A DNA stretch of 64,000 nucleotides from Rosellinia necatrix (lineage: Eukaryota; Ascomycota; Sordariomycetes; Xylariales; Xylariaceae), in assembly GCA_021209875.1 (NCBI GenBank), contig JAGYVD010000005.1, forward strand, positions 868,001 through 932,000. Reading direction: 5' to 3'. How positions within the stretch are numbered: position 1 is the first letter of the stretch; every line of letters begins with the position of its first letter. Position numbers and translations under genes: made by a program. The notes under the pieces are model-generated. The model was not told where the DNA came from. It searched no databases and saw only the letters and a list, made by a program, of their open reading frames with translations. Positions 25,544-55,971 of this stretch are shown piece by piece.

Positions 25544-28500
25544 ATGGCCATGTCACAACAAGAAATCGAGTCCATCCTCGCCAAGGATGGTCCGATGCCC
25601 ATCGCCATTGTGGGTGTTTCGGGTAGATTTCCGGGAGATGCGACAACCCCAGACAAACTTTGGGATATGGTCTCCCAGGCGCGGAGTGCGTTGACCGACG
25701 TACCGAAGGATCGTTATAACATCGACGGATTCTACCACCCCAGTGCCGAGCACCAGGGCACAACGAGCACCCGGAAAGGCCACTTCATCTCATCCGATGT
25801 TGGCCTTTTCGACGCTCCATTCTTCAAGATCTCTGCCCAGGAGGCCCATGCCATGGACCCCCAGCAGAGACTTGCTCTCGAACTCTCATACGAAGCTTTA
25901 GAATCAGGTAAGACGGGATGCTCTGCCGGCATGTGAGGGGCCGAAACGGACTAACGAATGAATGCGTAGCCGGCTTGACAATGACCGACGTTGCTAAGGC
26001 CAAGATGGGATGTTACCTGGGCACCTGTGTTAGGGACTACGCCGCCATCCGTGCCATTGACCCTGATGATTACCCGTATGTACCTGCGCTCGGCGGCGAA
26101 GCGAAATTAACTAACACTCCGGTAGTCGTTACGAGGCAAATGGATCTATGGGTACTGCCATGGTGTCTAATCGTATTTCCTGGTACTTCGATCTGAAGGG
26201 ACCTAGCTTGACGCTTGATACCGCATGCTCGTCCTCTCTTGTTTGCTTGCATCTAGCCATGCAGAGCATCCGCACTGGGGAGTCTAATATGGTATGCTTG
26301 GGCGAGATCCAGTGTGCATGCATGTAATTCAATGCTGACCTTGACAATAGGCTCTCGTTGGTGCCACTAATCTGATCCTGGCACCACACACTTCCAACCA
26401 TCTTAGCACTTTGTCGTTCTTGTCCAAGGACGGCAAGTCGCAATCGTTCGACCACAAGGCCAACGGATACTCTCGTGGCGAGGGTGTTTCGTTTATCGTC
26501 GTCAAGTCTTTGGTCGATGCTCTACGAGATGGTGACTGCATTCGTGCGGTCGTCCGAGGCACCTCGGTGACCCACGATGGTCGAACCCCCGGTATCAACC
26601 TGCCCTCTGCCGAGTCGCAGGAGGACCTGATCCGGGCCGCGTACGCTAACGCGAACTTGACGCCGGAGGAGACAACATACTTCGAGGCACACGGCCCCGG
26701 TACACCCGCCGGTGACCCGCTGGAGACTTCTGCTATTTCCAAGGTCTTTACCAAGTACCACTCTCCGGAGTTTCCTCTTTACGTCGGATCAGTCAAATCC
26801 AACATCGGCCACTTGGAAGCCGGAGCTGGTATTGCTGGTCTTACCAAGGCGATTTACGCTCTTGAGAAGGGCCAAATCCCCCCCAACATTTGGTTCGAGA
26901 GAGCCAACCCCAAGATTTTGCTTAAGGAATGGAACCTTTCCGTTCCTACTGAGCTTCTTCCTTGGCCCACTAATGGTTTGCGACGTGCCAGTATCAACTC
27001 CTTCGGATACGGTGGTACTAATGCTCATTGTATTATTGATGACGCTTACCATTATCTCACTAGCCGTGGCCTCATTGGGCGACACAATACTGCACCTGTC
27101 GTCCCGCGACCCGCCGCCCTCCTATCCCCCGAAGCTGAGATCCCTCTTTCGATGGCGTCCTCGGCTTTCGCTACTAGCGTTCTGAACTCCGAGGTTGTCA
27201 GCACCGAAGGCACTACCACGCCAGACTCTGAGGTCGATGTTGCGGAGGATTTGGGAGTTATTTCGTCCACACCTCAGCTTCTCGTCTGGTCGCACCACGA
27301 GCAGAATGGTATTTCTAGGACCGCCAAGGACCTACAGGCCTACCTGAGCGAGGGAGATGTCCTTGCTACCGAGGCTCCCACCCACCTCAAGAGTTTGGCC
27401 TATACTCTATCAGCACGCCGAACCCGACACCCTTGGGCCTCGTTCGTGGTCGCTTCGGATCTCGAGGAGGCTGTGAAGGAGCTTGGCACCCCGGCTAAAC
27501 ATCTACGCCCCTCCGATAATCTCGCCTCGGTGTGGATTTTCACTGGTCAAGGTGCCCAGTGGTTTGGTATGGGCCGGGAGCTTCTAGCTTATCGTACCTA
27601 CCGAACCCGTATCGAAGAAGCTGCTGCTCACCTCAAGTCTATCGGCTGTGAGTGGGATCTAGTTGAGGAGCTTGGAAAGGGCCAAAACGACTCGCGAATC
27701 AACGAGCCTCAGGTCAGTCAGCCAGCTTGCACTGCTGTTCAGGTTGCTCTTGTCGACCTGTTGAAGGAGTGGGGTGCGTCTCCTGACTTCACCGTCGGCC
27801 ACTCGAGCGGTGAAATTGCCGCTGCCTATGCAAAGGGTGCACTTTCTCGTGAGGCTGCATGGACTGTTTCCTACCACCGTGGTCGTCTATCGGCCAGCCT
27901 AAACATCACTGGTGCCATGTTGGCGGTCGCCCTTGGGGAGGAAAGCGTTCAGCCTTTCATTGACCAATGCACTTCTGACCCCAAGCCGGTCGTTGCTTGC
28001 GTGAACAGCCCCGAAAGCGTGACTCTTTCTGGCAGCGTGGAGGGCATCGATGAGGTTCTCAACATTATCGGAAGCCAAGCCTGGGCTAGGAAGCTCCTGG
28101 TCAAGACCCCTTACCACAGCCCGTTCATGCAGAAACTGGCTGAGCCTTACTATGAGTCCATGAAGGGCATTACTGGCGGTGAAGCCACGTCTACTCGGAT
28201 GTTCTCCTCCGTTACTGGTAAAGAGACTGACGATGCTAGCCTTCTAAACCCCCAATACTGGGTTGACAACATGGTTAACTGCGTCCGTTTCGGCCCCGCC
28301 TTGGCTGGGATTATGAACGAACCTACCGTTTCTGGCAAGCCTATTGTCTTGATGGAAGTTGGACCCCATGGTGCTCTTCAGGGACCCGTCAAGCAGATCA
28401 TCAAGGCCCAGCCGGCTCAACCTTCCGAGTTGAACCTGTTTAGCTTATTGATGCGCAAGGAAGATGCTATTCGAACCACTCTGAAGGGTGTTGGTATTCT

Positions 28501-31500
28501 TTTCCAGAAGGGCCTGCCTATTGACGTCAGCAAGGCAAATCACCTCGACTCGAAGCAGGAGTCCCCTAACTTCCTTGTCGACTTGCCACCTTTCTCCTGG
28601 AACCACAATACGCGATTCTGGTATGAGACTGCATTGTCCTATGCCTACAAGAACCGGAGCGAGCCTAAGCACGACATTCTTGGCTCACGCGATATATTCT
28701 CTGGTGATGCTGAGCCCGCTTGGCGCAATTACCTCCGTACTTCTGAAATTCCTTGGGCCCGACATCATGGCGTACAGGATATCTTCCTTTTCTCTGCTGC
28801 TGGCTTCTTAACCATGGTTGCCGAAGCCATGCGCCAAATTGCCGAGCCCGGCAAGGTTATCGAGGGTATTCAGTTCCGAGACGTTTTCCCTGGCGCACCC
28901 ATTATTCTCACCGACAACGAGGATCAGCCCGTTGAGACGAAGCTCCAGCTTCGTAACTGGCGTGTTGCCTCGCGGTCGCTAACTACCTACTGGAAAGAGT
29001 TTACCATCACTAGCCGTACCCGTGATGGCACTTGGACCCAGCACAGCACTGGTCTCGTCTCGCTGAAGTACGCAGCTGACAACCACGCATCCAGTTTTGC
29101 TGATGAGCAGGCCGCCAACAATGAGGTTTACAAGAACGAGTATGCTCGCATCCAGGGCACTCCATTGGCTTCCCACACCGGCGATGAGTTCTACGCCAAG
29201 TTTGAGAAGCTTGGTATGCGCTGGGGTGAGACATTCAAGACGCTTAAGGAGTCTCGCTCTGCTGGTAATGCTGTCGTTGCGACTTTGCAGGTCCCTGATA
29301 CTCAATCTTGGATGCCTGCTCATGTTGAGTCTTCCTATGTCATCCATCCTGCTACCCTTGATGGTATCTTCCACATCCTTTTGGCCGCTGAAGGTGTTGA
29401 GAAAATCACCGTTCCCAAGTATATCGAGCGTATTTACATCTCTGCCAAGCTCCCAACCGAGGCTGGTGCGAAGCTTCAAGGTTATGCCGAGATCAAGGAG
29501 AAATGGGCTGATGGTACAAACGGAACCGTTGTGCTCTCTGATGAGAAGTGGGCTGAACCCCTACTTATCTTCGAGGGCTTGAAATCGACCGACTATAACT
29601 CCGGGTCGAATGATGATGAGAAGGACGAGTCTAAAATCAAGGCTGTTCGTAAACTGGGCGCCTACTCGACTTGGCACGTTGATGTTGAGAACTCCCCCGA
29701 GACCCTGAGGGAGATCTTGACCGATGCTGTCAATAAAGCTCCCCAAGTGCCATATACGGAGGTTTACGATCTCGAGTGGTGTGCGTATATTGTGTGCAAG
29801 AGAATGGCCCAACGCTTCACTGACGATGATGCCACGCGCATGGCTCCCCACCATCTGATCTTCTATAACTACATGAAGAACCAGGTCAAGCTGGCCAGCG
29901 AGAGCAAGCTGCCTTGCCAGACCCCTGAGTGGCTATCATGCAGCAAGGAGACCGAAGACGAGGTTCTTTCTCGTGCCGCGGCTACCAGCCTAGAGGGCAA
30001 GATGATGGTCCGTATCAGCGACAACATTGAGAGCGTTCTGCTGGGCGAGATCGAGCCTTGGGAGCTCATGAACCACGACAACGCTCTTAACGAAATGTAC
30101 CGCTACGGTCTTTCTGATGAGCGCACTCCTGCCGTCCAATGCGAATACATCAAACGCCTGGCTGCCAAGAGGCCCCTCCGTATCCTGGAGATTGGTGCCG
30201 GTACTGGTTCGGCCACTAGCCGTATCTTTGCCGCTCTGGGCGAGAACATTGCTGGCAAGCTAACAAAGTATACCTACACTGATATCTCTGGTTCTTTCTT
30301 CGCTGAAGCTGCCGAGGAGTTCAAGGAATACCGCTCTTTGATGGACTTCAAGGTCCTGAACGTTGAGAACGAGCCTGCTCAACAGGGTTTTGAGGAAGGC
30401 ACTTACGATATTGTCGTTGCCTTCCAGGTTCTGCACGCTACCTCGAAGATTAGCACCACCCTGGCCAACGCTCGCAGACTCTTGAAGCCCGGTGGTAAGC
30501 TGATTGTCACTGAATTGACTAGCAAGATTGGTCGCCGTTCTGCTGTCTTCGGTTTGCTCGCTGGTTGGTGGCTTGGTGAAGATGACGACCGACACTGGGG
30601 CCCTGAGCTCTCCGAGGAAGGTTGGGACGAGCGCCTTAAGGCTGTCGGTTTCACTGGTGCTGATCTATGCTTCCGCGACCGTGATGACGTCGGTTGGTCA
30701 TCTTCGCTGGTGGCCTCTACTAACCCTATCGAGCCCGAGATTTCTCCTCTTAACAATGTTACTATCATCACTGGCCCCGACGAGTCGGCTGGGGCGAGGG
30801 GTCTCACTGAAGAGCTGACCAAGAAGCTCACTGCCCAGGGCGCTACAGTTGACAAGAAGACCCTCACCGAGGCTGCCGAGGCCGATTTGACTAAGAATCG
30901 TATCATTGTCACAGCTGAGGTTGAGAACTCGGTGTTGACCGCTATGGACGACGTGCAGTACACTGCTGTCAAGAATATCTTCCTCCGATCTGATGGGACT
31001 CTCTGGCTCACCCAGGGTGGTGCTACCATTGATACTCGACGGCCCGCCCTTAACATGATCACGGGTCTTGCCCGCACCGTTCGCGGCGAGGCTCCTGAGA
31101 TCCGCCTTGCTACCCTCGATCTCGACCCTGATGTTGCGCTTGATGACCCCTCCACCACCAACACTGTCCTCAAGACGCTCACTATCCAAGGCGATGCTGC
31201 CAATATCGAGCACGAGTTTGCTGCTCGCAATGGTGCCATCCATATCCTCCGTCTTGGCACTGATGAGAACCTCAGCACACTACTCAAGCCCGATGAAGAT
31301 AACGAAAATGCCATTACTCAGCAACCTCTTAAGCAAGCCGGCCGTGCTCTCAAACTCGACATTAAGGCCACTGGTGAGCTTGATAGCTTCTTTTTCAACG
31401 ACGATGCCGAGCACGGAAAGACCCTCGGTGATTCAGAGGTTGAGATCGAGGTCAAGGCTGTTGGCCTCGACCAGTTTGACATGGTTGTTGCGGTTGGTCA

Positions 31501-33560
31501 AATCTGGGACGTTAACCTCGGCGTTGAGTGCTCTGGTGTTGTCACACGTGTTGGCAAGGACGTTGCTGAGTATGCTGTGGGTGATCGTGTCCTCACTGTT
31601 GCCAACGGCTGGTATAGGACCTATGTCCGTAACAGCCAGGAGAACTTCCAGAAGCTGCCCGAATCCATGTCCTTCGAGGAGGGTGCTTCCATGATGATCT
31701 CATACGGTACTGCGGCTTACAGTGTCTACAATGCCGCCCGCCTTGAGGCAGGTGAGACGATCTTAATCCACTCTGCTGCCGATGCCCTTGGTCAGGGTGC
31801 GATCCAGATGGCCCAGCACATTGGCGCTGAAGTTCTCGTCACCGTCTCCTCCGAGACTGAGAAGAACCTACTTAAGGAGAAGTATGCTATCCCTGATGAC
31901 CACATCTTCAGCAACAAGGATGCCGGCTTCGTCCAGGGGATCAAGCGTATCACCAAGGGCGAAGGTGTGCAGGTCGTCATTAACTCGCTCACCGGTGAGT
32001 TGCTGCGCCAGACCTGGCACTGCATTGCACCATTTGGCCGTTTTATCGAGCTGGGCGTTAAGGACATTAAGTCTAACACTGGTCTCGACATGGTGCCGTT
32101 CCTGAACAACGCCACATTCTCCGGTGTCAACATTCTACAAATGTACCGCACCAACACGCGCGTCTTCAGCAAACTTATGGCAGATGTCATGAAGTTTTAT
32201 GCCGAGGGTGTGTTCAAGCTTGTGCCCCTCAACATCAAGAAGTTTTCGGAGATTGCCGATGCCTTCCGAATTCTGCAGTCACGCCGCTCTCTCGGCAAGG
32301 TTGTGCTCCAGGTCGATGACAAGGATATCGTCCCCGTTACTCGTGGCAAGAAGACCGAGCTCAAGCTAGACCCTAATGCTACCTATCTCCTCCCTGGAGG
32401 TACTGGTGGTCTCGGTCGCCCCATGCTTAACTGGATGGCCGACAAGGGCGCGAAGTACTTTGCTCTCACTTCCCGCTCCGGCGCTAAGAACCCCGAGGTT
32501 CAAGCCCTTATCGCTGACCTCGAAACCAAGGGTGTTAAGACCCGTGTCTTTGCCACCGACATTGGTGATGAGGCTGAGTGTGCCAAGGTGCTCGATGAGC
32601 TAGCCAAGAGCGACTTCCCGCCCATCAAGGGTACCGTCGTTCTCGCCATGAATGTCAAGGTAAGCTATTCCCTACAACGTTCTTAAATTTGTTGATCTGT
32701 TTACTAACTTTTAAACTCAGGATTCCATGTTTGAGACGATGCCCCTAGACGCTTGGAACGGCGCCATTCGCCCCAAGTACTTTGTCACCACCAACCTACA
32801 CAACCAGCTGCCCAAGGATCTTGACTTCTTCATCACCATCTCCTCCGCTGCTGGTCAGATCGGTTCCATCGCCCAGAGTAACTACAATGCCGGTAACGTC
32901 TACCAGGACGCCATCATGCACCACCGCCGCACCCTGGGTCTGACTGGTACCTCTATTGATCTGGGTTGGATGGGCGACATCGGTTTCGTGTCAGAGCAGG
33001 GAAAGGTGCCAGAGATCGTGGCCTGCGGTGCGCCGCAGATCGGATCTGCTCAGCTATGGGCAATCCTTGAGGAGGCGATGGCGGGCGAGGTCCGCAACCA
33101 GCCTATCTTGGGTCTGGCAAGCGGTGGTCTAGTCAAGGCGAACGGCTTTGACGAGCCTTACTGGTTCGCCGATGCCCGCTTCGGACCGCTCCGTGCCTTC
33201 GACTCGGCCACACAGAGCGCCAAACCCAACAAGAGCAACAGCGGAGCCGTTGATTTCGCAGCCGCCATCGGGGCAGCCAAGACAGCGGCCGATGCCACTA
33301 AGGTCGTCTGCCAGGGTCTTATGGTCAAGCTCGCCAAGGGTCTCATGATGGAGCTCGAGGATCTTGACCCGGCCCGCCCGATCAACACCTACGGTGTCGA
33401 CTCGCTCATCGCCGTTGACATCCGCGCCTGGGCCCTCAAAGATCTCCAGAGCGTCGTCCACGTGTCGGAGATCCTCAAGAACCAGCCCATGATCGATCTC
33501 GCACAGCATATCGCTTCTAAGTCGAAGTTCCTGCCCGCTGCTCTCCAGCCTAAGGCTTAA
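25544..33560 (+). CDS. Highly reducing type I polyketide synthase (KS-AT-DH-MT-ER-KR-ACP)
   Basis: Exons 25544-25907, 25970-26075, 26126-26291, 26351-32659 and 32721-33560 give 2594 aa. This iterative synthase would build a reduced, C-methylated polyketide. Domains: KS about 15-430 (DTACSSS Cys191, His326, NIGHLE His366); AT about 540-860 (GHSSGE, Ser697); DH about 940-1250 (His1018, Asp1216); C-methyltransferase (LEIGAGTG from 1491); ER about 1830-2150; KR about 2190-2420 (PGGTGGLGR; Tyr2370); ACP ([11 protein letters not shown], Ser2543). No thioesterase or release domain follows the ACP. Several motifs are unusual: EAHGPGT instead of EAHGTGT in KS; the DH motif HxxxGxxxxP reads [10 protein letters not shown]; the ER glycine loop reads SAADALGQG. 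Loading and condensation residues are all present. No tailoring enzyme lies beside it, so the product cannot be predicted. Confidence 0.95.
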
Positions 33561-45183: not shown

Positions 45184-46431
45184 ATGCCTAAGCGCTCTTT
45201 CGAGGAATATTCAACAGTAGCATCGAATTCTGGGTACAATTCAGTACTCGACCATGCTGATAAGCTGTTGAAAGCTGCAGAATCTCTGAAGCGAGACCTC
45301 GAGCGCCTGGCAAACCATGGCAGCAATCCGTCCTCTGAGACCATCCTCTCAACCCTGAAGCAACATAATGTCCGAATACATTCCGCAACGCGGGCGTTGT
45401 CCCAGGATGAGGTTTGATCACCATCGCCCCGTTTAAGGATTAAATCCAGTGTCTGACATGCATGATAGACTGCCGGTTTGAGCGAAACCGAAGGGGCCTT
45501 TCATAAGACTCAGAAAGTGGACCAGAGCCAGTCACCTTCAAACCACCGCCCCCAGTCAGGATTACCGATTCCGCATCCAGAAATGCTCTCCAGATGGGTG
45601 GTTGAGGACGTCCTTGACAAGGATGTGCTACCGCCGCTGCCTCCCGTGTTGGATCCCGTTCTCGAGAAGGCAGCCCGTACGCACGCCGGCGTGGCGAAGA
45701 CACTTGGGGAGATGGACTATGAACGGCTTGAGTGGATAGGTGATGCCTATCTATATCTGGCATCATCGGCACTCATCTATCAGACCTTTCCCAACCTACC
45801 TGCGGGGCGGTGTTCGCAACTTCGCGAACGACTCATAAAGAACGAGACCCTCTCCGACTTCACCGTGCGATACAACCTCGATAAGCGCGCCAGGTTGCCT
45901 GCCGAATTTCATCACGGCGGTAGACCGTCGGCAACCGGGGCTGGCACCTCGGCGTCAAAGAAGGAAAGGAAAAAAATCCTCGGCGATCTCTTGGAAGCCT
46001 ATACCGCCGCGGCCATTCTAAGCGACGCCGGCGGCCTCCCCAATGTTATCGCATGGCTCAAGTCAATCTGGGGCACCGCCCTCGCGCGCGAGATTCGCGA
46101 TGAGCACAAGAAACCGGTGACTCAACATCCAAAATCCGCCTTAGTTCAAGCCATTGGAGCGAAGGGGGTCACCATTTCCTATCGCGACGAAGGCAAGCCC
46201 AAGACCGATAAAAACTCAGGCCTGCCATGGTTTACCGTGGGGGCATACTACGATGGCCTAGGCGAGACTAACCTTAATCTCGGGTACGGAAGCGGTCTAT
46301 CCAAAACTGACGCTGGCGCCAAAGCAGCTGCACAAGCTTTGGAGAATAAGAAGTTGATGAAGCGCCTAAAGCAGCTGAAGGACGATATGAATGCCACACT
46401 TCAAAAAGCTAGAGATTCCCAAGACAAATAG
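45184..46431 (+). CDS. Ribonuclease III (Rnt1/Pac1-like) with dsRNA-binding domain
   Basis: Exons 45184-45411 and 45469-46431 give 396 aa. RNase III enzymes cut double-stranded RNA; Rnt1/Pac1 types process pre-rRNA, snRNA and snoRNA in the nucleus. After an N-terminal helical region (LLKAAESLKRDLERL), the nuclease signature reads YERLEWIGDAYL (Glu161, Glu164, Asp168), and GDLLEAYTAA (Asp249, Glu252) supplies the second acidic pair. A dsRNA-binding domain follows at about 295-380 (HPKSALVQ; GYGSGLSKTDAGAKAAAQAL). There is no PAZ or helicase domain, so it is not Dicer. The intron (57 nt) is phase 0 with a CTGAC branch site. Confidence 0.9.
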
Positions 46432-51218: not shown

Positions 51219-52011
51219 CTAATGATTCCCCGCAACTTGCCTGCCATCGTCACCATTGCTCCTCGGTGGTAATACTGTCATAAACCCACGGTGACATTCT
51301 TCTAGGTTACCGTCTACGCGGATCTAGTAGTCTAGTTTAGCAAGATATCCAATCACCGTTGAGATTAAGGGAGTAAGGGGGAATACACACGGTGCTCATA
51401 ATGTCTGCATAGCGCTTACGGACCACCTCCGTGTTATCGAAGTACTCGTGATACCGCGTATTGAAGAGTTTCTCATCATCAAGCTTATCTCTGGCCCGAC
51501 TTAAGAATCGCGCTTCAGCGATCTCTCGTTTGCAATCAAGAGCAATGACCTTCACAGGTTTCGCGAACTATACGGAGTAAACCTGTATGTAAGTATCGTG
51601 GATAATATCGCGTTGTGTTTTTTTTCCCTCTCATACCTCTTCCTCAAATGCAAGGGCGGATTCCTCAGTGCGCGGGAACCCATCGAGAAGCAAGGTCACA
51701 GCAAAGTTCTGTTCACCTAGTAAAGAATGTATCCTGGGCTGAAGCGCGACGAGGAGCGGATTGGCTGGTAACAGCCGGCTATCAAGCAAATAATCGCGGA
51801 TCATATTGCTAAGCTTAGAATCCACGCCACTTTCAGATGCCTTGGAGTAACTGAGCTCTCTTAGATAGTCTCCCACAGAGAGGTGTACATAACGATGGTC
51901 GCGGGTATCTGCTCTGGTGGCAGTGAGTTTACAGAGAGTGCCCTTGCCACTTCCCGGGGGCCCGATAACGAAAATAATTGCATGGCGGTTTTTTTGCATT
52001 GCGATCTCCAT
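51219..52011 (-). CDS. UMP/CMP-kinase-like nucleoside monophosphate kinase, divergent from viperin
   Basis: Exons 52011-51637, 51567-51391 and 51323-51219 give 218 aa, the usual size of short-lid NMP kinases. Such kinases phosphorylate UMP/CMP (or AMP) with ATP. The P-loop is GPPGSGKGT (17-25), the NMP-binding motif is YVHLSVGDYLRE (UMP/CMP-kinase-like wording), and DGFPR is at 110-114. The lid region has R149-A-R151-D-K-L-D155-D156, where the usual RxDD arginine is Lys153 and the spacing differs, so this is a divergent paralogue rather than the housekeeping enzyme. The final short exon (IRVDGNLEECHRGF) is the only phase-compatible acceptor and fits the family's C-terminal segment; it is less certain. 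I used the ATG at 52011 because it gives the normal distance to the P-loop; no organelle presequence results. Confidence 0.82.
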
Positions 52012-53103
52012 ATTGTGTAGTCCAGCTGTTCTGTATTGATGAGGCTGGATAAGTTGGGAGGGAGTACTGGTAACCTTACACCGAGCAAAATCATGTATAT
52101 ATATATAATACATGTAGTTTATCTATTTGTCTTAATACCTCTATCAATTTGTAAATAAGACATTGTTTTTCATATACAAACTATACTAAATCTAGAAGAG
52201 TCATAATAGGTGATTCATAGTGTGCTAAGAAGCCTTTGTCAACACAATTGATTATCAGCATATTGCAACAAAGCACGTATTCAGTAGCAAGACTAATCAG
52301 GTATTCAAAATAAGCCTCTTGTGAGACGTTTTACTCACGTACACCCGGTCCCGTTATCTCTAAGAATAAACACACACACATAGAAACTGCAAAGCAACTC
52401 CTGCAATCAGGGAGAAGAGCCAATAGCAAAGCCCTGTATACCAGACATCTAAAATCATAGCCTGTTAAGTTGACACTCTATACCCCTCTCAAATCAGTAG
52501 TAGTTTCTAATATTTTGATATCGTTATTAGCAATAAACACGATAATTAGATTTGTCTAGACATGGGTTGGTTAACTGCAGTTTTTCGACTCCCAACATGG
52601 CATATTGTGATGGCTGCAATTGTGGTTGTTGGTTCAGAGCCTAAAAAAACCCAAATGCGTACCCGGCGGCCAAAATTCGTACCGGTGACCCAGTAGCATA
52701 TTCACCAACTTCTAGGCTCTGGATTCACTATTAAATAGCTCAGATCCCGTACTAGCCAACCAATCACGGCTGCGGCAAGTGCCAACCCAGCTGTAGGCAG
52801 TGACATGTAAGTTAGCCATGGCGGTCTACTTGAGCAGAAGCCACGAGATAGGGCTAGAGTGGTAGGTTACAGGCTAATAACGCCTGCATTACGTGGTTCC
52901 ATAGTTGTCTTTCATGTTTGTACTTTGTCTAGAACAATCAGCAACGTTAGCCCCATCATCGGAGTACATATATCAAGGTGCTCCCAAGCCGCGTTGGGAG
53001 GACCAGCCATACTTTTTACATCCTGTAACTGTCAAGGCTACACTCTATTCTTTGTTACGCGTCAGAGAGAACACCCGCAAGATATACCAGCTTGCCATCC
53101 ACA
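52012..53103. promoter_or_regulatory. Shared divergent promoter region of kinase and viperin genes
   Basis: 1,092 bp separate the two start codons. No other coding signal is seen. A perfect 9-bp inverted repeat (CAGAGCCTA at 52635-52643 and TAGGCTCTG at 52713-52721) with a 69-nt spacer lies in the middle. Its function is unknown. Confidence 0.45.
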
Positions 53104-54144
53104 ATGCTGCCGACAACTCCCATTCCGCCTAGCCTGGCCCAGTGCACGACTGTAGCTTGCGCTGGCCTTCTCAGCATTGGGGCTTACCTGTTTTATCGGA
53201 AGCATCAAGCGGGGAAGGGTATCAAGCCCATATCGGTAAACTACCATTTTACAAGACTTTGTAACAAGGAATGCGAGTTCTGCTTCCACACCGAAAAGTC
53301 TTCCTATGTCGCTCCGGAGGATAAAATGAAGCGCGGGCTCCGTCTACTCCGGGACGCCGGCATGCGGAAAATCAACTTTGCCGGCGGAGAACCATTCCTC
53401 TATTTGAAAACGCTATCCATGCTCTGCCGTTTCTGTAAAGAGGAACTTGGGCTTGAAAGCGTCAGCATCATCACCAACGGAACTAAGGTCACGAAGAAAT
53501 GGATGGAGGAGAATGGCCAGTGGATCGACGTCCTGGGTGTCAGCTGTGACAGCTTCGACGAGAAAACAAACATTGCCATCGGTCGCGGGACAGGCAAGAA
53601 TGTTGAGCAGCTCTTCAATATTCGCGACTGGTGCCGGGAACTAGGCATCAAGTTCAAGCTGAACACCGTAGTATGTACCTACAACTGGAAGGAGAACATG
53701 GTGGACACTATACAGAAGCTGGACCCGTTCCGGTGGAAAGTATTCCAAGTGCTCTACGTGGAGGGGGAGAACGACGCCAAGGAAGAGGATGTGCGCTTAA
53801 ATAAGCGAAAACGGAATGCTAAGAAGCTTCTCATCACGAACGAGCAGTTCGAATCATTCTGCAAGAAACATCGGCACCTAGGCTCGTTTGTCCCCGAGCC
53901 GAACTCGCTCATGGCGTCGAGCTACCTCATTCTCGACGAGTACCTCTGCTTTCTGGACAAGGGCACCGGGGACGAGAAACAATCACGATCGATCCTAGAT
54001 GTGGGTGTCCAGGAGGCACTTGAGGAGGTTCATTGGGACCAGGAAGCGTTCAGTCAGCGTGGGGGCATGTATGAGTGGACAAAAGGAGCTGCCGGGAACG
54101 AGGGAGGATGTTGCGGGATGGCAGACAATAAATTAGAGTGGTAA
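53104..54144 (+). CDS. Viperin (RSAD2)-like radical SAM enzyme, putative ddhCTP synthase
   Basis: A single exon of 346 aa. Viperins use a [4Fe-4S] cluster and SAM to dehydrate a nucleotide; the animal enzyme makes 3'-deoxy-3',4'-didehydro-CTP, a chain terminator of viral RNA synthesis. The radical SAM motif CNKECEFC gives Cys53, Cys57 and Cys60. Viperin-specific blocks follow: KRGLRLLRDAGMRKINFAGG with GGEP (94-97), ITNGT, CDSFDE, IGRGTGKN, WKVFQVLYVEGEN, SSYLILDEY, SILDVGVQEA and RGGMYEWTKG. The last residues NKLEW end in Trp346, matching the C-terminal Trp that animal viperin needs for Fe-S cluster delivery. A hydrophobic segment (about 14-31) replaces the animal amphipathic helix and suggests ER or lipid-droplet attachment. 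The start is the first ATG; an in-frame TTG lies 12 bases upstream. Antiviral function in this fungus is inference. Confidence 0.93.
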   Translation: MLPTTPIPPSLAQCTTVACAGLLSIGAYLFYRKHQAGKGIKPISVNYHFTRLCNKECEFCFHTEKSSYVAPEDKMKRGLRLLRDAGMRKINFAGGEPFLYLKTLSMLCRFCKEELGLESVSIITNGTKVTKKWMEENGQWIDVLGVSCDSFDEKTNIAIGRGTGKNVEQLFNIRDWCRELGIKFKLNTVVCTYNWKENMVDTIQKLDPFRWKVFQVLYVEGENDAKEEDVRLNKRKRNAKKLLITNEQFESFCKKHRHLGSFVPEPNSLMASSYLILDEYLCFLDKGTGDEKQSRSILDVGVQEALEEVHWDQEAFSQRGGMYEWTKGAAGNEGGCCGMADNKLEW

Positions 54145-55016: not shown

Positions 55017-55971
55017 ATGAATCGCACAGCTGTGAAAGACGTTGCTCTGAGGCTACGACGCATTGTATCCAACATTGAAGTCGAGCGCAAATTCAACCCC
55101 GGCCCTAACTTCCCAACGTTCTACTCGATTAGGGGTGCCGTGAAAGTACAAGGGCTGCATCCTTTGGCAAACAATGATCTAGTGCGGCCGACCTGCGTTG
55201 TGTTTAGACAGCCCGTGGAGCTTATCCGCGATACATACTACGATACACCGGACGGCCAACTTGGAAAGCTGGGCCTCTGGGTCCGACAGCGCCGTGTTTC
55301 CGTTTTGCACGCTGATCGTCAGGGTCGCAAGGTTACTCGAGGACAAGCCTTGCCACCTGTCGCTGATCAGAGGTTAGTGTTCTGCAGTCTTCTATATTCT
55401 TTCGGCCGTCCGCGGTGGCAGACGTCCATGCGTAATGCGGAATATATGCTGACCTTAAACCTCTAGCTGGGAGACGACGCGATGGAATGCTAAACTGCGG
55501 CTCGCGGGCCATTTTGACAATTCCCAATTTGCCGAGATTGACGGGGAGAAGGGAGTTTCAGATGAGGTGTTGCGGATCACAGAGATGAAGATAAGACTAG
55601 AAGACCTGCGTGTCGTCTCGGATCTCCTAACTAGTCGACAATCGTGGGAGCTCAAGTGGCCGGCGGACGGTGCGCCACCCTCGCCAAAGACGACCATTGT
55701 GGTGGACGACGTCACCGAGGCCGGTGCCTACCAAGCAACATCGGACGAACTTACTTTCAGGCATACTATCGGCGAAGTGGAAACTTTTGAGGAATTCGTA
55801 ACCGAGGACAAGGACAGCACGGAACACGATGCACTCCGAAGGCAGACTGCGGCACATAGGATGGAAGACCTCGAGAAATTCATGTCGGCGTGCCCAGACC
55901 TGTTCTCCACGACGCCAAAACCTATTGGCAAGCTTAGCGCGTATGATGCGTGGAGAGCCTCACGTGGCTAA
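55017..55971 (+). CDS. CYTH-domain triphosphate hydrolase (thiamine-triphosphatase-like)
   Basis: Exons 55017-55372 and 55467-55971 give 286 aa. CYTH (triphosphate tunnel) enzymes hydrolyse the triphosphate of small molecules such as thiamine triphosphate or polyphosphate, with Mg2+. The signature ExExK is visible at 21-25 (IEVERKF). Typical tunnel elements follow: RDTYYDTPDGQL, GLWVRQRR, WNAKLR, a central ELKWPADG-like segment and the late FEEFVTEDK. The intron (94 nt, phase 2) has GCTGAC before the acceptor. The family call rests on motifs and their order; substrate specificity is not readable. It lies 0.9 kb downstream of viperin on the same strand. Confidence 0.82.

Follow-up and report, generated by a model that had tools for sequence, protein, structure and literature searches.

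A viperin-like radical S-adenosylmethionine (SAM) gene and a divergent nucleoside monophosphate (NMP) kinase gene lie head to head in the fungus Rosellinia necatrix, within a 64,000-nucleotide stretch referred to here as the window (assembly GCA_021209875.1, contig JAGYVD010000005.1, positions 868,001 to 932,000). The two probably form a conserved nucleotide-modifying module of Pezizomycotina, in which viperin and a kinase of the ADK family would make a 3'-deoxy-3',4'-didehydro nucleoside triphosphate (ddh-NTP) that terminates RNA chains. The start codons of the viperin gene (53104..54144, +) and the kinase gene (52011-51219, -) diverge from a spacer of 1,092 bp (52012..53103), in agreement with the 1.1 kb given in a preliminary description made from the sequence alone. 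This spacer has 41.6% GC against 51.7% for the window and is a possible shared promoter; a scan for bacterial-type promoters, which does not cover fungal ones, found no excess of sites in it over shuffled sequence (three against a mean of 2.7). That the pair goes beyond chance is argued from full-length homologues of both genes, the retention of conserved kinase positions and conserved linkage in other fungi. Viperin-kinase partnerships are already known in animals and prokaryotes; what is added here is the extent of the fungal linkage, the family and clade of the kinase, and its altered pocket.

The viperin gene consists of one exon with an intact open reading frame (ORF) of 346 aa, so that its earlier description as full length stands, coordinates included. 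From the N-terminus, a hydrophobic stretch is followed by the radical SAM core, and the last residue is the C-terminal Trp. The CX3CX2C cluster motif is present as CNKECEFC, and the protein is matched by Radical_SAM (PF04055, 63.1 bits, cut-off 29.5) and, past the family cut-off of 180, by NCBIfam NF038283 'viperin family antiviral radical SAM protein' (253.6 bits, E=1.9e-75). The NCBIfam 'exception' model TIGR04278 gives 350 bits, under its 450-bit threshold, and the protein is therefore assigned only to the viperin family NF038283 and not to this narrower model. It aligns over the catalytic part with the solved viperins PDB 9dfu, 6b4c (which we take to be that of Trichoderma virens) and 7n7i (359-375 bits), and a Rosellinia necatrix protein of equal length is 98% identical to it. 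A profile search of the contigs of the 49.1-Mb, 12-contig genome returned six PF04055 matches, among which, in our reading of match and ORF lengths, the window gene is the sole viperin.

The kinase gene has three exons separated by GT..AG introns and encodes 218 aa. Exon 1 (51637..52011, -) carries the P-loop GPPGSGKGT, HLSVGDYLR and DGFPR, exon 2 (51391..51567, -) the shortened lid RFLSRARDKLDDEKLFNTR, and exon 3 (51219..51323, -) the C-terminus and stop. This is the top-scoring among several splice models, and it is supported by two truncated metagenomic homologues (P0132 and P0135), which, judged by eye, reach an intron at the place where intron 1 starts. Full-length homologues exist, and the short-lid NMP kinase reported at this position was correctly delimited. 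The overall fold is like that of AK1, URA6 and UMPK, and the P-loop, the lid arginines and the acidic residues that follow them are conventional; R145, R149, R151, D155 and R163 are invariant within an alignment of 14 kinases (A1). Decay of the gene was considered and thought unlikely because 35 of the 36 strongly conserved kinase positions are retained, although its branch in the kinase tree is long.

Recurrence of the pair was assessed from the best 120 of 2,524 viperin matches and the best 120 of 7,483 kinase matches, a kinase and a viperin being called linked when they sit on contigs of exactly equal size, a proxy for the same contig. By this measure 37 of the 120 listed kinases are linked, where a mean of 0.125 is expected when sizes are jittered up to 5%. 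The pair is thus present in relatives, spread over many genera, contrary to the first of the outcomes that had been named in advance as a refutation. Species labels are identical on both sides in 31 linked pairs and present on one side only in one, and five pairs are unlabelled. Six linked pairs have locus tags that look positional, and in each of them the two genes follow one another directly (Xylariales sp. No.14919, Xylaria bambusicola, X. hypoxylon, X. curta, 'Lasiodiplodia mahajangana' and Apiospora aurea). Some unlabelled pairs sit on contigs of only 2,999, 4,460 and 7,371 bp; on the first two the genes are necessarily close, if equal size means one contig.

The distribution of these pairs was then followed in two trees. 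After exclusion of Papaver rows and a length filter of 165-300 aa, 89 of the 120 kinases on the list entered the kinase tree, together with 32 of 101 generic relatives (P0140-P0240), four PDB stretches and three kinases of the same genome; the tree omits the genome's own ADK1-like kinase and three of the 37 linked kinases (P0293, P0135 and P0332). All linked kinases in it fall in one clade of 68 rows (support 99/89). With the window included, 31 of 35 linked rows are on a branch that we assign to Xylariales, and the other four are on a weakly held branch (87/75) with Dothistroma, Zasmidium and Meristemomyces, which we call Dothideomycete-like; these class and order names come from general knowledge. 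Made by a quick method, the viperin tree covers the window, five of 17 prokaryotic loci and those listed viperins that reach 285 aa (118 of 120). In it, the viperin partners from the 4,460-bp contig and from Zasmidium join Lecanosticta, and those from the 2,999-bp and a 679-kb contig join Vermiconidia; the partner from a 17,870-bp contig is without firm placement near the base of the Lecanosticta/Vermiconidia part. Pairing on both branches implies an ancient arrangement or one that moved as a unit.

Several observations weigh against a conserved module. Among the matches listed, 21 of 49 named viperins (first 54 rows) are without a linked kinase, including the Rosellinia necatrix viperin record itself. 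Listed kinases of Hypoxylon sp. FL0890 and Jackrogersella minutella are on contigs of a different size from the viperin contig, and so is that of Ustulina deusta, an ambiguous case of multi-member clusters. In the seventh tagged pair, that of Zasmidium (M409DRAFT_21150/65407), the numbers are far apart and not consecutive, although such DRAFT numbers are presumably non-positional. The equal-size proxy is weakest for the five unlabelled contigs, and a leave-one-out comparison of the 31 pairs named on both sides found conserved positions lost in Zasmidium (6), Xylariaceae FL0255 (5) and FL0594 (3), Apiospora (3) and Poronia (2). Gene order in Xylariales could also be inherited without function. 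Absence among 120 listed matches is itself weak evidence, since the lists hold the best 120 only, matches are clustered at 90% identity and mis-calling of intron-bearing genes is frequent.

These points bear on a rival explanation, namely that the two genes are neighbours only through slow decay of gene order in Xylariales, viperin having beside it a lineage-specific nucleotide kinase unlinked to it in function. The concentration of linked rows on the Xylariales branch agrees with it, as do the Hypoxylon and Jackrogersella contigs, and recurrence was scored from the two genes alone. However, pairing on the Dothideomycete-like branch as well, in Zasmidium (a contig of 873 kb) and on the contigs of 2,999 and 4,460 bp, makes slow decay a harder explanation, and in the same 31 pairs the pairing persists although distances among the kinases are about double those among the viperins (median ratio 2.2). 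We consider this rival unlikely.

Two side observations concern the same trees. The record P0016/P0246 (O1611_g450/451), labelled Lasiodiplodia mahajangana, joins Nemania (Xylariales) in both, so this genome record may carry a wrong label or contamination. Within the ascomycete viperins, those of Mycena and Favolaschia (Basidiomycota) make up one clade (support 99) together with two unlabelled rows (rows P0055, P0058, P0059, P0063, P0066, P0067, P0071, P0076, P0094 and P0117), and the group enclosing them has 98 SH-aLRT support in the quick tree. This position suggests horizontal transfer; no Mycena kinase is among the 120 listed.

Profile matches and tree position place the kinase in the ADK family, within a fungal clade of its own, and it is neither housekeeping URA6 nor of thymidylate-kinase type. 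PF00406 (ADK) matches it at 64.4 bits (cut-off 26.8) and matches all 14 sequences of alignment A1, whereas PF02223 (Thymidylate_kin) reaches 14.6 bits, under the cut-off of 27, and at E<=0.001 matches one of the 14 (best E 5.8e-4). No PADLOC model matches the fungal kinase at E 0.001. Its grouping with nucleotide kinases and not with other P-loop proteins is therefore upheld by both PF00406 and the tree. With a midpoint root, the window kinase lies across a 100/99 branch from URA6 and CMPK1, so the phylogeny does not bear out an affiliation with URA6. Its own branch is long, at 0.65 against 0.07-0.12 for the three nearest rows.

Other kinases of the same genome were compared with it. The genome also encodes a URA6, a pair of long-lid adenylate kinases and a further divergent relative, and a search for a second copy of the window kinase in the genome gave only the window gene and weak matches to URA6 and the divergent relative on contig C2. 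Duplication of URA6 was rejected as an origin of the kinase, because it is the genome's own URA6, and not the window kinase, that clusters with yeast URA6 (100/97). The divergent ADK-like kinase (G000:C2:5315548-5316282; L041:4549-5283, -) has a degenerate DGHPL motif and a lid, ERSRQLTDDNERFETR, resembling that of the viperin-linked kinase, and sits close to the base of the clade on a very long branch.

Linkage of eukaryotic viperins has reportedly been treated by Shomar et al. in 2024, who are said to describe diversification through genetic linkage, notably with nucleotide kinases, perhaps including fungi. No report of a fungal viperin-linked kinase was found in the open-licence literature, which is no proof of absence, and the main text of a paper on eukaryotic viperins does not contain the word 'kinase' (PMC10732462). 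In vertebrates, RSAD2 (viperin) and CMPK2 are inverted neighbours and CMPK2 increases ddhCTP output (PMC10058120). The fungal pair resembles this pair in layout, with viperin and a nucleotide kinase as inverted neighbours, and probably in logic, but its kinase belongs to another family: the CMPK2 P-loop, the one feature compared, is quoted as GLDATGKT (PMC10058120), against GPPGSGKGT in the fungal ADK (PF00406) kinase. Eukaryotic viperins are restricted to CTP or UTP derivatives, and 15% of bacterial viperin genes adjoin a CMPK2-like kinase gene, according to a further source (PMC11249213).

The prokaryotic viperins, pVip in PADLOC (PDLC02904 and PDLC02905), likewise resemble the fungal system in that viperin adjoins a nucleotide kinase gene. 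In 17 prokaryotic loci, ORFs that start with ATG, reach 90 aa or more and contain a P-loop pattern were sought close to viperin, and four of the loci have an adjacent kinase ORF, L017 and L018 being near-copies and L015, L022, L027 and L031 having a short flank. Among the P-loop ORFs, which include larger ones, a Pfam scan covered these four and assigned all of them to PF02223 Thymidylate_kin (60.9-62.8 bits), in contrast to the ADK-family kinase of the fungus; the P-loop of the neighbour in L026, GLDATGKS, resembles the GLDATGKT quoted for CMPK2. Since all four are thymidylate-kinase-like, fungi seem to use another kinase for the partnership. A CMPK2-type identity was rejected on the Pfam families of the window kinase and the prokaryotic neighbours together with the quoted CMPK2 P-loop, and the parallel that had been drawn with the kinase partners of animals and prokaryotes does not extend to kinase type, the fungal protein falling outside the Thymidylate_kin family of the prokaryotic kinases, whose type of P-loop CMPK2 shares.

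Closer to the fungal kinase are URA6, CMPK1 and the Dictyostelium UMP-CMP kinase, which it matches in fold and size as well as in the short lid, the P-loop and the lid arginines. Its lid is shorter, however, it is on a separate branch, and its pocket differs. At the base-contact position, taken as the residue four after DGFPR, the window kinase has Ser, where CMPK1 and the Dictyostelium enzyme have Asn and URA6 has Gln. Thr or Ser stands there in 34 of the 37 linked kinases, with Asn in one and Gln in none, against Gln in 98 of the 101 generic relatives. In the SxGD motif, the alignment places Val in the viperin-linked kinase at the position of Ala in URA6, CMPK1 and the Dictyostelium enzyme; no literature support was found for an argument from this residue, which stems from the alignment alone. 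Three members of the same clade have Gln at the base contact, unlike all 37 linked kinases, and have no viperin listed on a contig of equal size: P0271 (Hypoxylon sp. FL0890), P0273 (Hypoxylon sp. CO27-5) and P0131 (Stachybotrys). The description 'UMP/CMP-kinase-like' thus holds for the overall fold and the short lid, but not for identity, given Ser in place of Asn or Gln and a score for the best NCBIfam model, TIGR01359 UMP/CMP kinase, of 78.5 bits against a cut-off of 207.6.

Thr or Ser at the base contact also counts against the simplest form of the proposal, because it leaves room for a substrate other than CMP or UMP. The kinase might instead act on a ddh-NMP or a purine NMP, or have a relaxed choice of base, an alternative that is compatible with a viperin-kinase module and that we regard as possible rather than likely. 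The residue statistics above and a lid three residues shorter than in AK1 speak for it. However, the remaining 83 listed kinases have Thr or Ser there in 46 cases and Gln in 30, so that these residues are not confined to the linked ones; the fold, P-loop, lid arginines and acidic residues are conventional; and since the ddh modification sits on the ribose, an altered base contact alone is no pointer to ddh-NMP.

In the module proposed here, viperin, probably anchored through its N-terminal hydrophobic stretch, would convert a pyrimidine nucleoside triphosphate (CTP, perhaps UTP) to the 3'-deoxy-3',4'-didehydro analogue, and the resulting ddh-NTP would terminate viral RNA chains and halt viral RNA polymerases. 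The kinase may phosphorylate the matching NMP, yielding a nucleoside diphosphate that becomes viperin substrate and so raising supply, or it may re-phosphorylate ddh-NMP formed by turnover; the present data do not discriminate between these roles. We infer that the pair is jointly expressed and serves an antiviral purpose. A bolder version, which we consider rather improbable, is that filamentous fungi assembled the module independently of animals and bacteria, from a dedicated ADK-family clade with a re-tuned pocket (Thr/Ser for the base-reading Gln/Asn, and a shorter lid), the kinase phosphorylating a non-standard nucleotide such as ddh-CMP or ddh-UMP and thereby recharging the antiviral analogue instead of just supplying CTP. 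Rosellinia necatrix is a long-standing species for mycovirus study. If the proposal is right, viperin acquired a kinase partner on at least two occasions, from different families of nucleotide kinases, which would make the provision or recycling of nucleotides a general bottleneck of viperin immunity and would point to a cell-autonomous antiviral pathway in filamentous fungi, alongside RNA silencing. With its unusual base pocket, the kinase clade would also provide a direct biochemical route to the purpose of the kinase partner.

The viperin could otherwise serve ordinary or secondary metabolism instead of defence, with the kinase supplying that pathway. About 18 kb separate the kinase end from a highly reducing polyketide synthase gene (26411-33560, +), which encodes the C-terminal part of a ketosynthase, acyltransferase, dehydratase, methyltransferase, zinc-binding dehydrogenase and ketoreductase domains, and a weakly matched acyl carrier protein (ACP) domain; moreover, no antiviral assay of a fungal viperin was found among literature titles on fungal viperin or mycovirus. 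Genes for a subunit of complex I and for a PUF protein, however, separate the polyketide synthase from the pair, and we find a metabolic role quite doubtful.

Repeat and Rfam scans gave nothing useful. Downstream of viperin by 0.87 kb and in the same direction is a two-exon gene (55017..55971, +; intron 55373-55466) encoding 286 aa, whose match to CYTH (triphosphate tunnel hydrolase, PF01928) is weak, at 19.9 bits and under the 23.2 cut-off; no second copy of this gene was found in the genome, and as a putative triphosphatase gene beside viperin it is a candidate third member of the module. On the other side, about 5 kb beyond the kinase, lies a gene for an RNase III domain protein that may act in RNA processing or silencing (45478-46431, +).
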